A stretch of 64,000 nucleotides of DNA, from assembly GCA_017991595.1 (NCBI GenBank), contig JAGOQJ010000007.1, forward strand, positions 62,001 through 126,000, in the 5' to 3' direction. The notes beneath the pieces were generated by a model. That model worked only from the letters and a program-made list of their open reading frames with translations. It made no database searches and was not told the origin of the DNA. Positions 6,399 through 15,182 of this stretch are shown here, in pieces (the stretch's first letter is position 1; each line of letters starts with the position of its first letter). This DNA comes from Candidatus Didemnitutus sp. (GTDB lineage: Bacteria; Verrucomicrobiota; Verrucomicrobiia; Opitutales; Opitutaceae). A program made the translations under genes and the position numbers.

Positions 6399-9161
6399 AT
6401 GGCCTCGATCACCAAGAGCTACGAACCGCGCGACGTTGAAGGCAAGTGGTATGCCGCCTGGCAGACCGCCGAGTGTTTCGCGGGGCGCGTCGATCCCGCG
6501 AAGCAATCCTACAGCATCGTCATCCCGCCGCCCAACGTCACCGGCGTGCTCACGATGGGCCATGTGCTCAACAATTCCCTCCAGGACATCCTCATCCGCC
6601 GCGCGCGTCTCGAGGGCAAGGAGGCCATGTGGCTCCCCGGCACCGACCACGCGGGCATCGCCACGCAGACCGTCGTCGAGCGCGAGCTGCGCAAGCAGAA
6701 GGTCCACCGCCGCGACCTCGGCCGCGAGAAGTTCCTCGAGCAGGTCTGGTCCTGGCGCGAGGAAAAGGGCGGCATCATCCTCAAGCAGCTGCAGGCGCTC
6801 GGCGCCTCGTGCGATTGGAGCCGCACGCAGTTCACGATGGACCCGCACTACTCGCAGGCGGTCCTCAACGTGTTCGTCGATCTTTTCGCCAAGGGCCACA
6901 TCTACCGCGGCAAGCGCATGGTGAACTGGTGCCCGGTCTCGCTCACCGCGCTCTCCGACGAGGAAGTGATCATGAAGCCCGCGAAGGGTTTCCTCTACCA
7001 GGTGCGCTACGAGCGCGTCGACGCGCCGGGCGAGTTCATCACCGTCAAGACCACGCGGCCCGAGACGATTCCCGGCGACGTGGCCATCGCCGTGCATCCC
7101 GACGATCCGCGCTACGCCGGCTGGATCGGCAAGAAGGTGCGTCGTCCGCTGGGGCCGACCGCGGAGATCCCGATCATCGCCGACAGCGCGGTGGACAAGG
7201 AATTCGGTTCCGGCGCGCTCAAGATCACGCCGGCCCACGACAAGGTCGATTTCGAGATCGGCCAGCGCCACAAGCTCCCGCCGATCGATGTGCTCAACGC
7301 CGACGGCACGCTCAACGACCTCGCCGGCTCCGAACTCGCCGGTCTGGACCGTTTCGCCGGCCGCAAGAAGGCGGCCGAGCTGCTGAAGGATCGCGGCGCG
7401 CTGGTGAAGGAGGAGCCGTATGAGAACAACGTCGGCTTCTCCGAACGCGCCGACGTGCCGATCGAGCCGCGCCTGACTTGGCAGTGGTGGCTGAAGTATC
7501 CTCGCGTCGAGGAGGCCAAGGCCGCCGTGCGCGACGGACACATCAAGTTCCACCCGGAGCGCTGGTCGAAGGTTTACCTGCACTGGCTCGAAAACATCCA
7601 GGACTGGTGCATCAGCCGCCAGCTCTGGTGGGGCCACCGCATCCCGGTGTGGTATCGCAAGGGTCTCGACAAGGAGAAGCTCACCGAGGCCGAGCTGCGC
7701 GATCCGTCGAAGGTCCACGTCTCCCTCGCCGGCCCCGCCGACCCGCAGAACTGGGTGCAGGAGGACGACGTGCTCGACACCTGGGCGTCGTCCTGGCTCT
7801 GGCCCTTCGCCACGCTCGGCTGGCCCGATGCGGCCAAGATGAAGGAGCGCGGCTACGAGTATTTCTACCCGACGAGCACGCTCGTGACCGGCCCGGACAT
7901 CATCTTCTTCTGGGTCGCGCGCATGATCATGGCCGGCCTCGAATACACCCACGAGGGCCAGCCGCTTGAAAAACGGATTCCGTTCAAGGACGTCTATTTC
8001 ACCGGTATCATCCGCGACCAGCAGGGCCGCAAGATGTCGAAGTCCCTCGGCAACTCGCCCGACCCGCTCGACCTCATCGCCAAGTATGGCGCGGACGGCC
8101 TGCGCTTCGGCATCGTTTCCATCGCGCCGCAGGGGCAGGACATCCGCTTCCAGGAAGACCGCATCGAGAGCGGCAAGAACTTCTGCAACAAGCTCTGGAA
8201 CGCCTGCCGCTTCCGCCAGATGAGCGGCGACAGCGCCGACAACTCCTCGCTCGCCGCCATCCTCGCGCGCCTCGATGCCGCGAAGTTCGACGCCGACGAC
8301 CACGCCATCCTCGACCGCCTGCTCGCCACCACGCGCGCCGTCGAGGAGGCCTTCGCCAAGTTCGAGTTCAGCACCGCGGTCCAGACGCTCTACGGATTTT
8401 TCTGGAATGACTTCTGCGACTGGTATGTCGAGGTCTCGAAGGCGAAGCTGCAGGAAGCGTCCACCAAGGACAACTGCCTCGCCATCCAGGACCTCGTGCT
8501 GCGCCAGACGCTGCTGCTGCTGCACCCGTTCACGCCCTTCATCACCGAGGAACTCTGGCACCTGCTCGGCTACGCCGGCCCTGAGCCTGTCGAAGCGGGC
8601 ACCGACGCGCAATTCCTCATGCGCGACGTGCGGATCGAGAAGGAGGCCGAACTCGTCGCGGCCCTCGCGGCGCGCGGGGTGAAGATCGACACGGCCGCCG
8701 CCGCGGCCGTCGGCAGCCTCAAGGAGCTCACCTCGCAGGTCCGCGCCTTCAAGGCCGACAACGGCGAGGCGGCGAAGAAGGATTCGCAGTTCGTCGTCGA
8801 GGCCAGCGACGCGCAATGGGCGTTGCTCGAGGCCAACCTCGCCAAGCTGAAGCGCATGATGGGCGCGGCCGAGGTGACGCGCGGCAAGATGTCGCCCAAC
8901 GCGCCGGCGTGCGTGACGCCGCTCGGTTCGTGGAACCTCATCCGCCAGCTCAAGGCCGGTGACACGGCCGCCGAGAAGGCCCGTCTGACGAAGGAACTCG
9001 AAACCGTCTCCAAGCACATCGCCGGCACCGAGGCGCGGCTCTCGAACGAGGCCTTCGTCTCCAAGGCGCCGCCCGCCGTGCTCGAAGGAGCGCGCAAGCA
9101 ACTCGCCGACCAGAAGGCCAAGAAGGCCGAGGTCGAGCGCCTGCTTGCCGCGCTCGGCTGA
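6399..9161 (+). CDS. valS: Valyl-tRNA synthetase
   Basis: A class I aminoacyl-tRNA synthetase of 920 residues that charges tRNA-Val and edits mis-activated threonine. The HIGH-type motif appears as PPPNVTGVLTMGH (ending at His55) and the KMSKS loop is exact at about 545-549 (GRKMSKSLGNSPDP). The CP1 editing domain, the anticodon-binding domain and a C-terminal coiled coil (about 840-920) are all present, and the length is normal. The start ATG gives the family N-terminus KSYEPRDVEGKWYAAW. One oddity: codons near 8579-8597 encode GPEPVEAG from the sequence CCTGAGCCTGTCGAAG, which resembles a dispersed repeat seen in many bacterial genomes. A strong terminator follows. Confidence 0.98.
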   Translation: MASITKSYEPRDVEGKWYAAWQTAECFAGRVDPAKQSYSIVIPPPNVTGVLTMGHVLNNSLQDILIRRARLEGKEAMWLPGTDHAGIATQTVVERELRKQKVHRRDLGREKFLEQVWSWREEKGGIILKQLQALGASCDWSRTQFTMDPHYSQAVLNVFVDLFAKGHIYRGKRMVNWCPVSLTALSDEEVIMKPAKGFLYQVRYERVDAPGEFITVKTTRPETIPGDVAIAVHPDDPRYAGWIGKKVRRPLGPTAEIPIIADSAVDKEFGSGALKITPAHDKVDFEIGQRHKLPPIDVLNADGTLNDLAGSELAGLDRFAGRKKAAELLKDRGALVKEEPYENNVGFSERADVPIEPRLTWQWWLKYPRVEEAKAAVRDGHIKFHPERWSKVYLHWLENIQDWCISRQLWWGHRIPVWYRKGLDKEKLTEAELRDPSKVHVSLAGPADPQNWVQEDDVLDTWASSWLWPFATLGWPDAAKMKERGYEYFYPTSTLVTGPDIIFFWVARMIMAGLEYTHEGQPLEKRIPFKDVYFTGIIRDQQGRKMSKSLGNSPDPLDLIAKYGADGLRFGIVSIAPQGQDIRFQEDRIESGKNFCNKLWNACRFRQMSGDSADNSSLAAILARLDAAKFDADDHAILDRLLATTRAVEEAFAKFEFSTAVQTLYGFFWNDFCDWYVEVSKAKLQEASTKDNCLAIQDLVLRQTLLLLHPFTPFITEELWHLLGYAGPEPVEAGTDAQFLMRDVRIEKEAELVAALAARGVKIDTAAAAAVGSLKELTSQVRAFKADNGEAAKKDSQFVVEASDAQWALLEANLAKLKRMMGAAEVTRGKMSPNAPACVTPLGSWNLIRQLKAGDTAAEKARLTKELETVSKHIAGTEARLSNEAFVSKAPPAVLEGARKQLADQKAKKAEVERLLAALG

Positions 9162-9181
9162 GCAAACGAGTTTGCATGTCC

Positions 9182-9217
9182 GCCCCGAGCCGCCCGCGCG
9201 CGCTCGGGGCTTTTTAT
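9182..9217 (+). terminator. Intrinsic terminator of valS
   Basis: The perfect 9-bp stem GCCCCGAGC (9182-9190) / GCTCGGGGC (9202-9210), with an 11-base loop, is followed directly by TTTTT. It lies 20 bp past the valS stop codon. Confidence 0.9.
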
Positions 9218-9246
9218 TGGGGCGGTTTCGATGCCCGCCGCTGCCT

Positions 9247-9264
9247 TGTAGTCGAAAAACGACA
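9247..9264. promoter_or_regulatory. Inverted-repeat element upstream of the first PEP-CTERM gene
   Basis: TGTAGT-N6-ACGACA is a dyad with one mismatch, centred about 85 bp upstream of the ATG at 9341. The second PEP-CTERM gene has the perfect version TGTCGT-N6-ACGACA at 10371. Both copies continue with AGGA and, exactly 22 bases after the dyad, TAGT followed by a TCAC block. Conservation of sequence and spacing in front of two similar genes suggests a shared operator or promoter element. Which protein binds it is unknown. Confidence 0.6.
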
Positions 9265-9340
9265 GGAAGTCGTGATGGTGATTCGGTAGTGTGTCACCGG
9301 AACTAAACATGACATTTCGGGCAGCGTTTTGTCGAAGGTC

Positions 9341-10123
9341 ATGCTTCTACCAACCACTATGACATCCATGCTTGCATCCTTGCCAGGGCTCCGGCGCTTT
9401 GCCCCGCTGGCTTTTGTTTTCCTCGTGCTTGCGCAGCCCGAGGCAGTCCGTGCCCAAGTGACGGTGCCGGATATCGTCGTCACTTCGATGACAACCAGCG
9501 ATCCCGACAAGAATGGCGGCTATTGGTCCGGCGTGGAGACAGGGCAGCTGGGCAGCGTCGCGAACTCGGTTTTTCCTGCGGGAACTTACGCGGCCGGAAC
9601 GAGTATCACTGTCACCGTCCGCCCGACGGCGGGCTACGTTTTTCAGCTGAACCCGAATGATCAGTTTTTGTTTTCCTTCGGCTTCAAAAACGCTGCCGGT
9701 GGTGGCACGACGATCCAGTATTCGCCCACGACAGCGACTTTCCTTGATGTGCAGGGCGGGACACTCGATGGAGACAATCAGTTTTCCTCCCCGGCGATTG
9801 GTATCGGAGCAGACACAGGCAGTGCGAACTACTACACGATCTATAATTCCTCCAATTTGTTTACGAGCGGCTTGACCGTGACCGGAACGACGACATTCAG
9901 CGCGCTCCAATTCACCACCGTGTTGTCCGGCGAGCTGACTTTGAGTGAGCTGATTCTGGATCAGGTGAGGTTCGAGGTCCACAGTGTGTCACCGGGGGCC
10001 TTGAGCATGGTTGCCGCTCCCGCGGTGCCCGAGCCATCGACCTACGCAGCGATCTTTGGTGCGCTGGCGCTCGGTGCAGTCGGTATCGTCCGCCGTCGTC
10101 GCGTGCCCGTGACGCAGAACTGA
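9341..10123 (+). CDS. PEP-CTERM sorting-domain protein
   Basis: About 260 residues if started at ATG 9341; ATG 9359 or 9368 would also leave the signal peptide (LRRFAPLAFVFLVLA, then a cleavage site near VRAQ) intact. The body is beta-rich, Gly/Thr-rich and has no recognised domain. The C-terminus is a textbook PEP-CTERM signal: PEPSTYAAIFGALALGAV, a single membrane-spanning stretch, then RRRR. Proteins with this tail are processed by exosortase and linked to the cell surface or exopolysaccharide; no exosortase gene is in the window. It shares its tail almost exactly, and an upstream inverted repeat, with the gene at 10469. A strong terminator follows. Function of the exported part is unknown. 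Confidence 0.88.
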   Translation: MLLPTTMTSMLASLPGLRRFAPLAFVFLVLAQPEAVRAQVTVPDIVVTSMTTSDPDKNGGYWSGVETGQLGSVANSVFPAGTYAAGTSITVTVRPTAGYVFQLNPNDQFLFSFGFKNAAGGGTTIQYSPTTATFLDVQGGTLDGDNQFSSPAIGIGADTGSANYYTIYNSSNLFTSGLTVTGTTTFSALQFTTVLSGELTLSELILDQVRFEVHSVSPGALSMVAAPAVPEPSTYAAIFGALALGAVGIVRRRRVPVTQN

Positions 10124-10144
10124 CTTTGGGTCACCTCTCGTCGC

Positions 10145-10181
10145 ACTCCGGCCCGCGTCTACGCGGCCGGAGTTTGTTTTT
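10145..10181 (+). terminator. Intrinsic terminator of first PEP-CTERM gene
   Basis: The perfect stem ACTCCGGCC (10145-10153) / GGCCGGAGT (10165-10173) is followed by TTGTTTTTGTT. It starts 22 bp after the stop codon at 10123. Confidence 0.85.
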
Positions 10182-10225
10182 GTTGGCGCGCAGACGTGCG
10201 CGCCCTTCGTCCGCACGCGGCACGA

Positions 10226-10320
10226 CCAGCCGCGTCGTCGTGCCGTCGCGGGGAGAACTTCAGCGCGTTGCTGACGGGATTTTCGAGGACTTGGCGCAGG
10301 CGCGCGGCGTCGCCATCGCC
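10226..10320 (-). pseudogene. Decayed fragment of a histidine-kinase ATPase domain
   Basis: About 75-90 bases here align with the region near 11540-11630 inside the TPR histidine kinase gene, same orientation, with roughly ten mismatches and one indel. Read on the minus strand it gives DAARLRQVLENPVSNALKFSP, against DPARLRQVLENLVSNALKFSP in the intact gene: this is the N box of the HATPase domain. The surrounding frame has no other kinase motif and no start. It is therefore a non-functional relic of a duplicated or related kinase, stranded between the terminator of one PEP-CTERM gene and the upstream element of the next. It accounts for much of the 345-bp gap between those genes. Confidence 0.7.
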
Positions 10321-10370
10321 GCGCTTTTCTTTTGCCCGCGGCGCCCGCGCTGGCGAGGTCGCGCCGGGCT

Positions 10371-10388
10371 TGTCGTCGGAAAACGACA
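10371..10388. promoter_or_regulatory. Inverted-repeat element upstream of the second PEP-CTERM gene
   Basis: The perfect dyad TGTCGT-N6-ACGACA ends 80 bp before the ATG at 10469. It matches the element at 9247 in sequence, in distance to the gene and in the downstream TAGT...TCAC block at the same 22-base spacing. Read as a probable shared regulatory site for PEP-CTERM genes; the binding factor is unknown. Confidence 0.62.
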
Positions 10389-10468
10389 GGACGCCGTCGC
10401 GGGGAAACGATAGTATCACGCGGTCCCGAGTATCCCTGACGCACGAACCTATACCGTATCCTCCACCT

Positions 10469-11140
10469 ATGAATCGCACTCGTTGGGTCGCTTCGGCGGC
10501 TCTTTTGTTCTCCCTTGTGACCTTCGGCTCCGCCCAGACCACGATCTCCTCGTGGGAAGCCGCCGGCCCGGCCAATGCGGCCTGGGGCATCGCCGGCAGC
10601 GGCGGGTCTTGGATGTCGATGGTCGGCTTCACGGCCAACACCACCAGCGTCGTCGGCGAGGCCGGCCTCTATCTCTATCAAGGCACTTCCAGCGCCTACA
10701 CGGTCACGTATCAGCTCTGGTCGTCGATGCCGAACCGCATCAATCTCAACGCCGCCGGCCAGCCCGGCTATCTGGGTAGCGCGTCGGTCTCCGGTTCGGG
10801 CATGTCCACGACGAACGGTCAGTTGGTGACCGCCGATTTCACCGCGCAGAACATCACCCTGAACGCGGGCTCGACCTATTATCTGCTGCCGATCTTCGAC
10901 TCCGGCGGCGCGAACTGGAATATGACGGGCACTGGCAACCTCAGCGCGGCGGCCTTCTACAACACCGACGGCACCGGCTCGCTGACGTCCGCCTCCTGGG
11001 TCGCCAACCAAGCTTACAAGGACGTGGGTTACTCGGTGGCCGCTCCCATTCCTGAACCTTCCACCTACGCGGCGATCTTCGGCGCGCTGGCACTCGGCGC
11101 CGTGGCGCTCCGCCGTCGCCGTGCGGCGCAGGCGGCCTGA
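10469..11140 (+). CDS. PEP-CTERM sorting-domain protein
   Basis: A 223-residue exported protein starting at ATG 10469, which directly precedes a signal peptide (RTRWVASAALLFSLVTFGSAQ). The middle is Gly/Ser/Thr-rich beta structure (LWSSMP, YYLLPIFDSGGANWNMTG) and resembles the choice-of-anchor type of PEP-CTERM exoproteins. The C-terminus is IPEPSTYAAIFGALALGAV followed by RRRR, the exosortase recognition signal. The longer upstream open frame is discarded because it runs through the kinase relic and the regulatory dyad. It is probably co-regulated with the PEP-CTERM gene at 9341 through the shared upstream element. Exported role unknown. Confidence 0.9.
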   Translation: MNRTRWVASAALLFSLVTFGSAQTTISSWEAAGPANAAWGIAGSGGSWMSMVGFTANTTSVVGEAGLYLYQGTSSAYTVTYQLWSSMPNRINLNAAGQPGYLGSASVSGSGMSTTNGQLVTADFTAQNITLNAGSTYYLLPIFDSGGANWNMTGTGNLSAAAFYNTDGTGSLTSASWVANQAYKDVGYSVAAPIPEPSTYAAIFGALALGAVALRRRRAAQAA

Positions 11141-11166
11141 TATCCGGTTTCGTCCGCTACACTCTT

Positions 11167-11203
11167 CCCCGGCCACGTTCGCGTGACCGGGGTTTTTGTT
11201 TTT
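11167..11203 (+). terminator. Intrinsic terminator of second PEP-CTERM gene
   Basis: An 11-bp stem with one mismatch, CCCCGGCCACG / CGTGACCGGGG, closes on a TTCG tetraloop (11167-11192) and is followed by TTTTTGTTTTT. Confidence 0.9.
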
Positions 11204-11282
11204 GCGCGCTTGCGATCCTCACCCGCAGGCGGGACGTGAAGCGTAGTCGCCTGCGCCAGCGCAGCCGGCGCGGCTGTGCCCA

Positions 11283-13344
11283 TTAAGATCGAGCGGGGAA
11301 CTCGATGGAGAACGTCGCGCCTTGGCCGGGCGTCGAGTCGACTTCGAGGCGGCCGCCGTGCGCGATGACGAGGTCGCGCGCCAGCGCGAGGCCGAGACCG
11401 GTCGACGGCTCGCCGCCGGTCGGCACGGCGCTGAGGCGGCGGAAGCGTTGGAAGAGCCCGGCCCGATCCTCAGGCGTCAAACCGGGTCCCTCGTCGCGCA
11501 CGGCGAGGCGCACGGTTGCCGCGTCGGGGCGGCTGAGCTGCAAGCGGGTCGTCGTGCCCGGCGGGGAGAATTTCAGCGCGTTGCTGACGAGATTTTCGAG
11601 CACCTGGCGCAGGCGCGCCGGATCGCCCTCGATGTGGGGCGCGCCCGAGGCGTCACCGGAGATGAGTTCGAGACGCTGGTTCTTGCGGGCGGCGCGGTCG
11701 GCGAAGACGGCCACCGTGTCGGCGGCGAGGGTGGCGAGGTCGACCGGTTCGCGCGCGAGTTGCAGGCGGTGGGATTCGGTCGCGGAGCCGTCGAGCAGAT
11801 CCTGCACGAGCCCGAGCATGCGCCGGCTTTCCTCGCGGAGGGCGTGGGCACGAGCGGCGATGTCGGGCCGGTCGGCGCTCTCCTCGGCGATCGTCTCGGC
11901 GGTCATCATCGTGCCGACGAGCGGGGTTTTCAGGTCGTGCGAGGCGAGGTCGAGCAACCTCGCTTGCAGGGCGGCGGCCTCCTCGGCGGCATCGCGGGCG
12001 CGGCGGGTTTCCTCGAGAATGCGGCGCTCGGCGCGCGTGACGGCGCGCTGGCGGCTGATGATGGCGACGGCAGCGGTGAGGCCGAAGACGAGCAAGCCGG
12101 CCAGCCCGATGCGCTCGATGCGAGTGCGGCGCAGTTCGGCTTCCTTGGTGGCGAGTTCGGCGTCCTGTTTTTGCTGAGCGGCCTTGAGCTCGGCGATCTG
12201 GCGCTGGCGTTTCTCGGCGTCGAACCGTTCGCGGAGTTCGGCGATGGTTTTGGCGGTGTTTTCGCCGGAGACGATGTCGTCTTCCCCTTGGGCCTTGCGC
12301 TGGTATTCCAGCGCGGCGCGGTAATCGCCCGTGGCGGCGTAGGCCTCGCTGAAGGCGAGGTAGAGATTGCCGAAGAGTTCGTGGCTGCCGACCTTCTCGG
12401 CGAGCGGCGCGGCCGCGCGGAGTTGGGTGAGAGCCTCCTCACCGCGGCCGAGGCGTGCGAGGGTGGAGGCGACCGAGAGGCGGGCGGAGGCGATGTGGCG
12501 GGGCACCCCGAGTTCGAGGCGGAGGGCGAGGGCCTGTTCGAAAAACGGCAGCGCGGCGGGCGTGATTCTTCGCGGTGTTTTCGAGCGCGCCGAGGTTGAT
12601 GAGTGCGTTGGCCATGCTGCGACGGTTGCCGGCGGCGGTGTGCGTGCGCAGGTTTTCGAGCAACAGCGGGCGAGCCTCGTCGAAGCGGCCGCTATCGTAG
12701 AGGACGATGGCGAGGTTGTTGCGGATCTGGAGCCGAAGATCGGCGAGTTGGTGCTTTTCGGCCAGCGCCAGCGCGGCGCGGTGGTGTTGTTCGGATTGAT
12801 CGAACAGTTTCTGGTGTCGGGCGACAATGCCGCGGCTGTTCAGCACGCGGATGAGCAGTGTCGTGTCCTTGAGTTCTTCGGCGGTGCGCTGCGCCGCGAG
12901 GTAGCAGGCTTCGGCGGCTGGGTAGTCGCCGCGGTTCCAGTAAATCTGGCCCGACTCGTAGACGAGCCCGGCGTGGGCGAGGCGGTCCGCCGGGCTGTCG
13001 CCGAGCGGAAGGGCAAGGCCGGCGTCGGTGACGCGGCGTGCCTCGTCGTAACGGCTGTTGCGGCGGAGCGATTCGCTGAGCTGGGTGCGGGCGCGAAGCT
13101 CGTCGAGGCGGTCCGGGCTGCGCTCGGCGAGCGCGAGGGCCTCTTGGGCGACGGCGATGGCGCGTGCCGGCTCGTTGGCGTCGAGCGCGCGGGCATCCCG
13201 GATCAGCTCGTCGATGCGGGCGTGGGACGAATCGGTGACGGACGGTGCGCCGGCGGATGGCGCGGACAAAACCGGGCCAGCGATGGCGAGGCAGAGCGGG
13301 AGGAACGTGTGGCGCAGCCGAACACGGCGGACGGGGAGGATCAT
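11283..13344 (-). CDS. Exported TPR sensor histidine kinase, interrupted by a one-base frameshift
   Basis: The gene reads from ATG 13344 (signal peptide, LRHTFLPLCLAIAGPVLSAP) through at least five tetratricopeptide repeats in one frame up to INLGALENTAKNH. It then continues in another frame (ALPFFEQALALRLELG) to the stop at 11283. Removing one G from the GGG at 12558-12560 restores a seamless TPR phrase (NH-AAALPFFEQAL), so a single-base insertion or sequencing error is the cause. After the TPRs come a coiled coil, one membrane helix (GLAGLLVFGLTAAVAII), a HisKA box with LDLASHDLKTPLVG, and a complete HATPase domain (N box LENLVSNALKFSP, DEGPGL, STGLGLALA). The periplasmic TPR layout is typical of such kinases. 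It is divergent from, and likely signals to, the LuxR-type regulator at 13430. Confidence 0.85.
12558..12560 (-). other. Frameshift position in the TPR histidine kinase gene
   Basis: A GGG run (CCC on the coding strand). Both flanking frames are clean TPR sequence and one fewer base joins them exactly. This could be a real mutation that splits the kinase, or a homopolymer sequencing or assembly error. Confidence 0.7.
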
Positions 13345-13429
13345 CGGGGCAAGGCGCGGATTTTTGACGCTCGGGCGGGACAAAATTGCGTTGATCCAAG
13401 GAGTGTCAGCTCGGAGCGTGGGCGAGTCG

Positions 13430-14071
13430 ATGTCGGAAGATCCTGTGCCACAGATATTGCTGGCGGATGACCATGTGTTGATCCGCGATGCGTTGCCGTC
13501 CGCCATCCGGCGACGGGTGCCGCAGGCGCGTTTCGAGATGGTCGGCACGGCGGCGGCGGTGCTGCAGGCGGTGCAGCGCACGGAGTGGGATCTCGTGGTG
13601 CTCGACTTGGGTCTGCCCGGCGGCACGGAACTCGAGACCCTGCGGCGCGTGCGCGAGCTGCGTCCGCAGATGCCGATCCTGGTCTTGTCGATGTTTCCCG
13701 AGCAGAAGATGGGCGTGGCGGCGATCGAGGCCGGGGCGGACGGCTATCTTTGCAAGACGGCCGACCGGGCGACGATTGCGTCCGCGGTGGCGGAGACGTT
13801 GGCGGGTAACGGCTATCGGAGCGCGCACCTGCGGGAATTGCTGGCGAAGCGCGTCAGCGAACGGCGCGGTAAGGCGGCGGCGCTTTCGCAGCGCGAACTC
13901 GAGGTGCTGATCGCGCTCGGGCGCGGACGATCCAACAAGGAGATCGCGGCGGATTTCTGCATCAGCGTGACGTCCGTCGGCACGTATCGCACGCGGATCC
14001 TGGACAAGCTTGGGCTGCGGACGACGGCGGATTTGCTCCGCTACGTCGTCGAGCACCGGTTGGCCCGCTGA
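13430..14071 (+). CDS. NarL/LuxR-family response regulator
   Basis: A 213-residue regulator started at ATG 13430; the open frame extends upstream but there it overlaps the divergent kinase gene. The receiver domain (about 7-125) has ADDH at its start, the phosphorylation site Asp59 ([10 protein letters not shown]) and a conserved Lys near CKTADRA. The LuxR helix-turn-helix (about 150-210) carries [20 protein letters not shown] and [19 protein letters not shown]. It is divergent from the TPR sensor kinase with 85 bp between starts, a typical arrangement for a two-component pair sharing a promoter region. If the kinase is truly frameshifted, this regulator may be orphaned. Confidence 0.92.
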
Positions 14072-14147
14072 GGCAGCGCCGACGCCCGCGCGTCGCCCGA
14101 CGCGCGCTTGCGTGGGCGCGCGAGTTGCCTCTTGCTTGTCCCACCAC

Positions 14148-15182
14148 ATGAAGAAGGCCCTCATCACCGGCATCACCGGGCAGGACGGATCGTATCTCGC
14201 CGAGTTTCTCCTCTCCAAGGGCTACGAGGTCCACGGCATCATCCGCCGTGCGTCGACGTTCAACACGAGCCGCATCGACCACCTCAATTTCAACCGCCAC
14301 GCCAACGGCGCGCAGCTCACGCTTCACTACGGCGACCTCGCCGATGCGGTGCAGATGGTGAAGCTGCTCTACGAGCTCCAACCCGACGAGGTCTACAACC
14401 TCGCCGCGCAGTCGCACGTGCGCGTCTCATTCGACATCCCGGAATACACCGGCGACATCGACGGCCAGGGCGCGTTGCGCATCCTTGAGGCGATCCGCGA
14501 GGCCGGACTGGTGAAGAAGACTCGTTTCTACCAAGCTTCCTCCTCCGAGATGTTCGGCAAGGTGCAGGAGGTGCCGCAGACGGAGAAGACGCCGTTCTGG
14601 CCGCGTTCGCCCTACGGCTGCGCCAAGGTTTACGCCTATTGGCTGACCGTGAACTTCCGCGAGAGTTACGGCCTGCACGCGTCGAACGGCATCCTTTTCA
14701 ACCACGAAAGCCCGCGCCGCGGCGAGACCTTCGTTACGCGCAAGATCACCCGCGCTGCCACCCGCATCAAGCTGGGCCTGCAGGACTCGCTTTACCTCGG
14801 CAACCTCGACGCGAAGCGCGACTGGGGCTACGCCAAGGAATACGTCGAGATGATGTGGCTCATGCTCCAACAGGAGCAGCCCGACGACTACGTCGTGGCG
14901 ACGAACGAGACGCACAGCGTGCGCGATTTCTGCGCGGAGGCCTTCGGCCTGCTCGGGCTCGATTGGGAGAAATACGTCCGCCACGACACGCGCTACGAGC
15001 GCCCCGCGGAGGTCGACCTGCTCATCGGCAATCCGGAGAAGGCGCGCCGCCAACTCGGTTGGGAGCCGAAGGTCCGCTTCAAGGATCTCGTGCGGATCAT
15101 GGTCGAGCACGACCTTGAGCTGGCCAAACGCGAAGCTCAGATCGCGCAGCTGCCGGACGTCTCCAAGGCCCCCTTCGCCTGA
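14148..15182 (+). CDS. gmd: GDP-mannose 4,6-dehydratase
   Basis: A 344-residue extended short-chain dehydrogenase that converts GDP-D-mannose to GDP-4-keto-6-deoxymannose. The start at 14148 gives the family N-terminus [20 protein letters not shown], which includes the Gly-rich NADP site. The sequence also shows [15 protein letters not shown], the catalytic [14 protein letters not shown] and [10 protein letters not shown] (Tyr-x3-Lys), and [16 protein letters not shown], all diagnostic of Gmd. The next gene, 75 bp downstream, is GDP-L-fucose synthase, so the two form the standard GDP-L-fucose pathway for surface polysaccharide. Confidence 0.97.

Follow-up and report, generated by a model that had tools for sequence, protein, structure and literature searches.

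Control of PEP-CTERM genes in described systems

In Proteobacteria, PEP-CTERM genes are preceded by a sigma54 site, with a profile that matches those of PrsR, PrsK and PrsT, as laid out in the relevant passages of Haft et al. (2006, PMC1569441). Excerpts of two other reports state that one PEP-CTERM gene depends on RpoN (PMC9850573) and that target enrichment is found for DVUA0057 (PMC3333781). For Verrucomicrobium spinosum, which is outside the Proteobacteria, Table 1 of Haft et al. gives 65 PEP-CTERM genes and no PrsK, PrsR or PrsT (PMC1569441).

Here, we analyzed a 64,000-nucleotide stretch of DNA (the window) from Candidatus Didemnitutus sp., in which an 18-bp inverted repeat stands before each of two PEP-CTERM genes and a histidine kinase and a response regulator are encoded nearby. 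Compared with the PrsK/PrsR/PrsT system, as far as it is described in those passages, the logic is the same and the parts are different. Both have a cis-site before single PEP-CTERM genes, a phylogenetic profile that matches a kinase-regulator pair, and the involvement of TPR sequence. Unlike the proteobacterial system, the locus in the window combines an 18-bp dyad, at about -43 of a sigma70-like promoter, with a LuxR/NarL-type regulator and a kinase to which the TPR sequence is fused, and its range is limited to a subset of PEP-CTERM genes. PrsR is NtrC-like and has a sigma54-interaction domain, while the neighbouring regulator has Response_reg and GerE domains only; the window system falls outside the PrsR system.

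GacA is a LuxR/NarL-type regulator with the same domain make-up as the regulator in the window. The GacA box, given as TGTAAG-N6-CTTACA in the corresponding part of PMC4950607, resembles the dyad described here in its 18-bp length, 6-bp halves, N6 spacer and TGT...ACA ends. In contrast to the GacA/UvrY case as presented there, the half-site is TGTMGT instead of TGTAAG, and the targets are PEP-CTERM genes instead of small RNAs. The regulator in the window scores 88.3 bits against the UvrY/SirA/GacA equivalog model (NF007018), for which the cut-off is 280. In the literature searched, we recognised no account of the dyad or of a LuxR-type PEP-CTERM regulator in Verrucomicrobia.

An 18-bp dyad precedes two PEP-CTERM genes

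PEP-CTERM protein 1 (260 aa; ORF at 9341-10123, forward strand) has a signal peptide-like N-terminus and a VPEPSTYAAIFGALALGAVG-RRRR tail, while PEP-CTERM protein 2 (223 aa; 10469-11140, forward strand) matches PF07589 with 21.4 bits. Both carry the PEP motif, hydrophobic helix and basic tail of the sorting domain, and both exceed the TIGR02595 cut-off of 16 (22.5 and 22.6 bits, respectively). The two putative operators lie upstream on the same strand, namely: dyad 1 at 9247-9264 (TGTAGTCGAAAAACGACA, TGTAGT-N6-ACGACA) and dyad 2 at 10371-10388 (TGTCGTCGGAAAACGACA, TGTCGT-N6-ACGACA). The first-pass annotation had placed them 76 and 80 bp before the start codons, and these are indeed the gaps from the dyad ends to the ATGs at 9341 and 10469; for gene 1, the in-frame ATGs at 9359 and 9368 are further possible starts.

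That annotation had noticed no other copies in the window, which is borne out and extends to the whole draft genome (2.88 Mb, 18 contigs), where the exact pattern TGTMGT-N6-ACGACA has the same two matches. It had also suggested a genome-wide search for enrichment before PEP-CTERM genes, and 2/2 exact sites are within 150 bp upstream of such genes. Since these upstream intervals make up only ~0.16% of the genome, the placement of the exact sites before PEP-CTERM starts is more than chance. When one mismatch is allowed, the own genome has 23 matches in all, counted by strand, vs. 15 for the reversed pattern; these counts are close to background, and therefore the exact form alone is informative in this genome. 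Of the flanking blocks that had been described as shared, GGA follows each dyad and TAGT lies at 22 bp in both copies, but TCAC does not keep a constant offset: counted from the first base of TAGT, it begins 7 bp on in copy 1 and 5 bp on in copy 2.

Distribution of the site in the genus, family and order

The PEP-CTERM genes of sister species were reached by a protein search with PEP-CTERM protein 1. The dyad is also found before PEP-CTERM genes in three sister species (G008, G001 and G007) and in two other genera. In the sister species it stands before each PEP-CTERM gene of a syntenic locus (three in G008, one of them with a single mismatch; two in G001; one in G007), the order of which is valS - [dyad-PEP-CTERM]n - histidine kinase (convergent) / response regulator - gmd - fcl. 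The kinase and regulator are present in 4/4 cassettes of the genus. Comparison of the valS-gmd junction (window 9161-14148; L099, L100, L104, L105, L122 and L106 in relatives) revealed that the cassette is absent, with valS followed directly by gmd, in five genomes of the genus (G003, G009, G010, G006 and G004) and in one of another genus (G018). No exact site exists in G003, whose valS is 98% identical and in which 40 PEP-CTERM matches were counted.

The 13 genomes of the genus contain 13 distinct exact 18-bp sites, eight of which precede PEP-CTERM genes; the other five look coding, the one in L092 having been called so on a reading of the sequence only. One of the eight is an extra site of G001 at an unlinked locus (C12:720357, i.e. 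L093 1501-1518); it has the opposite orientation, lies 61 bp ahead of its PEP-CTERM gene and lacks TANNNT at offset 22. The PEP-CTERM protein encoded there has a metalloprotease-like HELLHSFG stretch.

A longer form of the site, TGTMGTNNNNAAACGACAGGA, was used as the pattern for a search of 252 family genomes, which returned 9 exact matches, and 24 matches at up to one mismatch vs. 5 for the reversed control. In eight of the nine exact cases a PEP-CTERM tail is encoded ~650-840 bp downstream: two in the own genome (G000), two in G008, and one each in G001, G007, G057 and G036. At the ninth, in G131, the contig stops short, with unrelated-looking sequence at its edge and no PEP-CTERM gene linked to the site. 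Among the one-mismatch sites, 2/15 are before PEP-CTERM genes, both at the genus locus. Exact sites occur in four genera, as G057, G036 and G131 represent three genera other than the own one. Order-wide, 5 of 372 genomes contain the exact site, all five belonging to the Opitutaceae family searched. A tighter pattern gave 7 matches in a broader contig collection; one is the G036 contig, and the other six have no PEP-CTERM gene downstream, some of them with little downstream sequence.

The composite ACGACAGG-N19..21-TAGT was rejected as the signal: apart from the two own sites it was not enriched in 57 relatives, because the -10 element varies. G060 was dropped as a dyad genome, as its one-mismatch site has convergent genes on either side and a T-run after it, and no PEP-CTERM gene is present there.

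Promoter geometry

Eleven sites were aligned: the two of the own genome, three from G008, two from G001, and one each from G007, G057, G036 and G131. TANNNT, which resembles a sigma70 -10 element, begins 22 bp past ACGACA in 10 of the 11 and 23 bp past it in the remaining one; in 5000 shuffles of the downstream 60 bp, at most 3 sequences had one common TANNNT offset. The TANNNT positions are outside the patterns by which the sites were collected and are thus independent evidence, whereas most dyad positions are conserved partly by construction.

In the window, the putative -10 elements are TAGTGT (9287-9292) and TAGTAT (10411-10416), both on the forward strand and 22 bp after dyads 1 and 2, respectively. 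With the -10 element placed at -12 to -7, the dyad would span -52 to -35 and be centred at -43.5 from the predicted start, which is the position of a class II activator. No ordinary -35/-10 promoter emerged when the region was scanned with the sigma70 consensus. An operator over -35 at a fixed spacing to the -10 element, here 22 bp in 10/11 sites, is the arrangement of a class II activator-dependent sigma70 promoter; in that promoter class the activator bound to the operator contacts RNA polymerase, as it may here.

The site marks a subset of PEP-CTERM genes

At E ≤ 1, 31 PEP-CTERM matches were obtained in the own genome, and the upstream sequence was examined for 30 of them, the 31st (below the cut-off) having no locus; for six long genes the open-frame start was used, which is unconfirmed. 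The site precedes 2 of these 30 genes and is missing from the other 28. The best of the latter is the upstream region of L029, with a score of 9.0; the real sites reach 43-44, and the background peaks at 6.6. L020 and L029 (C12 of the own genome, ~79.7-81.4 kb) form a divergent PEP-CTERM pair with a common intergenic region that holds a weak composite site. In 30 PEP-CTERM loci taken from eight relatives (of 187 matches there), the best dyad score is 11.2 and none is above the background 99th percentile, which is likewise 11.2 as determined from 230-bp stretches.

Because the site is carried by 2/30 own genes and by none of the 30 relatives' loci beyond background, the dyad marks a sub-regulon and is not a general PEP-CTERM signal. 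The first-pass annotation had considered dedicated regulation of PEP-CTERM/exosortase cargo. A specific, position-conserved dyad before the genes it would regulate stands, but a general PEP-CTERM/exosortase signal is not supported, given the 28 examined own genes without the site and G003. It had also named other PEP-CTERM genes lacking the motif as evidence against its claim; such genes exist, and they count against the broad reading and not against that of a sub-regulon. This suggests that the PEP-CTERM proteins of one genome fall into separately controlled groups.

The neighbouring regulator and its co-occurrence with the site

The candidate dyad-binding protein is encoded at 13430-14071 (forward strand). 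Its Response_reg (PF00072, 69.9 bits) and GerE (PF00196, 47.2 bits) domains both score over the cut-off and place it in the LuxR/NarL (GerE) class. The TPR histidine kinase (11283-13626, reverse strand) is in two frames in the own draft: a C-terminal frame at 11283-12827 with TPR_12, HisKA and HATPase_c, and an N-terminal open frame at 12439-13626 with the TPR sequence, the real start of which is probably lower. It is a single ORF in G001, G007 and G008, and the split reflects either a sequencing error or recent decay.

The regulator was compared with 252 genomes, the best 12 candidates being scored in each. Among these candidates, orthologues were found in 7/252 genomes (G000, G007, G001, G008, G057, G131 and G060), with 82-50% identity besides the own protein, and every other match is at most 44% identical. 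The six with at least 57% identity, i.e. all except that of G060, come from genomes with an exact site and have SVGTYR in common in the helix-turn-helix; the G060 regulator (50% identity) has SVETDR instead, and its genome has no convincing site. In G057, 37 kb separate the kinase-regulator pair from the site, so the match between site and regulator is not explained by linkage alone. A naive count for 6 regulator genomes inside 7 exact-site genomes of 252 gives 2e-11, and a naive genus-level count for 3 regulator genera inside 4 site genera of 49 gives 2e-4, the true number being weakened by relatedness in both cases. Four of the six regulator genomes represent one syntenic locus in one genus, which leaves few independent events (three genera).

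Proposed mechanism and alternative explanations

We regard the dyad and its promoter as a genuine operator-promoter unit serving a PEP-CTERM sub-regulon, and the regulator at 13430-14071 is a strong candidate for the protein that acts on it. Dyad conservation, the fixed 22-bp TANNNT spacing, the association with PEP-CTERM genes and the co-occurrence with the regulator are features of the sequences themselves, and the neighbouring two-component pair probably switches both PEP-CTERM genes on. The explanation that we favour, with fair confidence, is that the dyad would be a class II activator-dependent operator, bound by the adjacent LuxR/NarL-type regulator, which would activate the PEP-CTERM sub-regulon. 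In such a scheme, each dyad would serve a sigma70-type promoter of one PEP-CTERM gene. The TPR histidine kinase, divergently encoded, would phosphorylate the regulator, a dimer of which would bind TGTMGT-N6-ACGACA at about -52 to -35 (centre ~-43.5) and recruit RNA polymerase to the TANNNT 22 bp downstream, standing in for a poor -35 element. The set of genes so controlled would be a few surface-exported PEP-CTERM proteins and not all of them.

On a wider scale, we lean towards a two-component system of the family's own, comprising the TPR histidine kinase and the LuxR/NarL-type regulator with sigma70 promoters, that would serve a PEP-CTERM sub-regulon independently of the proteobacterial sigma54 PrsK/PrsR system. 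It would be carried as a lineage-variable cassette, i.e. one to three [operator-PEP-CTERM gene] units with kinase and regulator, which lies between valS and gmd in one genus, while regulator and targets are unlinked in another. This suggests a second, independently built kinase-regulator solution for PEP-CTERM cargo. As the operator is defined, the promoter geometry is fixed and a candidate regulator is named, the question of control is directly testable.

The alternative that survives best, to which we give a minor but real share of the probability, is that the dyad is a real operator bound by another protein, either a repressor or an unlinked activator, with the kinase-regulator pair as a travelling companion. 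This would account for G036 (94% complete), which has the site before a PEP-CTERM gene and no regulator match at E ≤ 1e-40 among the best 12 candidates scored. The regulator is also physically linked to the site at the main locus, and common ancestry thus accounts for part of the co-occurrence; the stretch between the kinase and regulator genes yielded no dyad ahead of the latter, hence no sign of autoregulation. However, regulator and site occur together in three genera, 37 kb apart in G057, and G060, whose regulator alone among the orthologues has an altered helix, is also the genome that lacks a convincing site. Moreover, a position of about -43 fits an activator better than a repressor.

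It is improbable that the similarity between the two upstream regions is a functionless relic, left by tandem duplication of a [dyad-PEP-kinase] unit. A remnant of the histidine-kinase gene, from the stretch that encodes the ATPase domain, does lie at 10231-10318 (reverse strand; blastn 86% over 88 bp, E 2.6e-24), after PEP-CTERM gene 1 and before dyad 2, and in G131 another such remnant, a kinase tail, lies beside the dyad; units have therefore been duplicated or rearranged. Nevertheless, the two upstream regions of the window align poorly outside ~29 bp around the dyad, and PEP-CTERM proteins 1 and 2 are only 28% identical, so recent duplication is not the whole explanation. The confinement of the alignment to ~29 bp next to such divergent proteins speaks for selection on the dyad region, and the site is kept before PEP-CTERM genes in other genera.

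The chance that the dyad acts as an RNA hairpin, in a leader structure or a terminator, is just as slim. Its halves could pair into a 6-bp stem closing a 6-nt loop, and the look-alike of G060, flanked by convergent genes, has a T-run behind it, but none of the 11 aligned sites has a T-run directly after it and a promoter/terminator scan gave no terminator at either dyad. With the -10-like box at a fixed spacing downstream, the dyad would not be transcribed from the predicted start. Least probable of all is that the site belongs to the known sigma54/PrsR regulation, which has the same class of target genes and a two-component pair with TPR sequence: the best sigma54 matches near all 11 sites have 3-5 mismatches to TGGCACG-N4-TTGC, as do random window stretches (the first-pass annotation had rightly judged the motif unlike a sigma54 promoter), the regulator has GerE and no sigma54-activator domain, and neither the PrsR nor the PrsK model ranks within the best 25 NCBIfam matches of regulator and kinase.

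In another genus, on contig C200 of G131 (L201 4621-5268), a PEP-CTERM gene directly follows the regulator gene.
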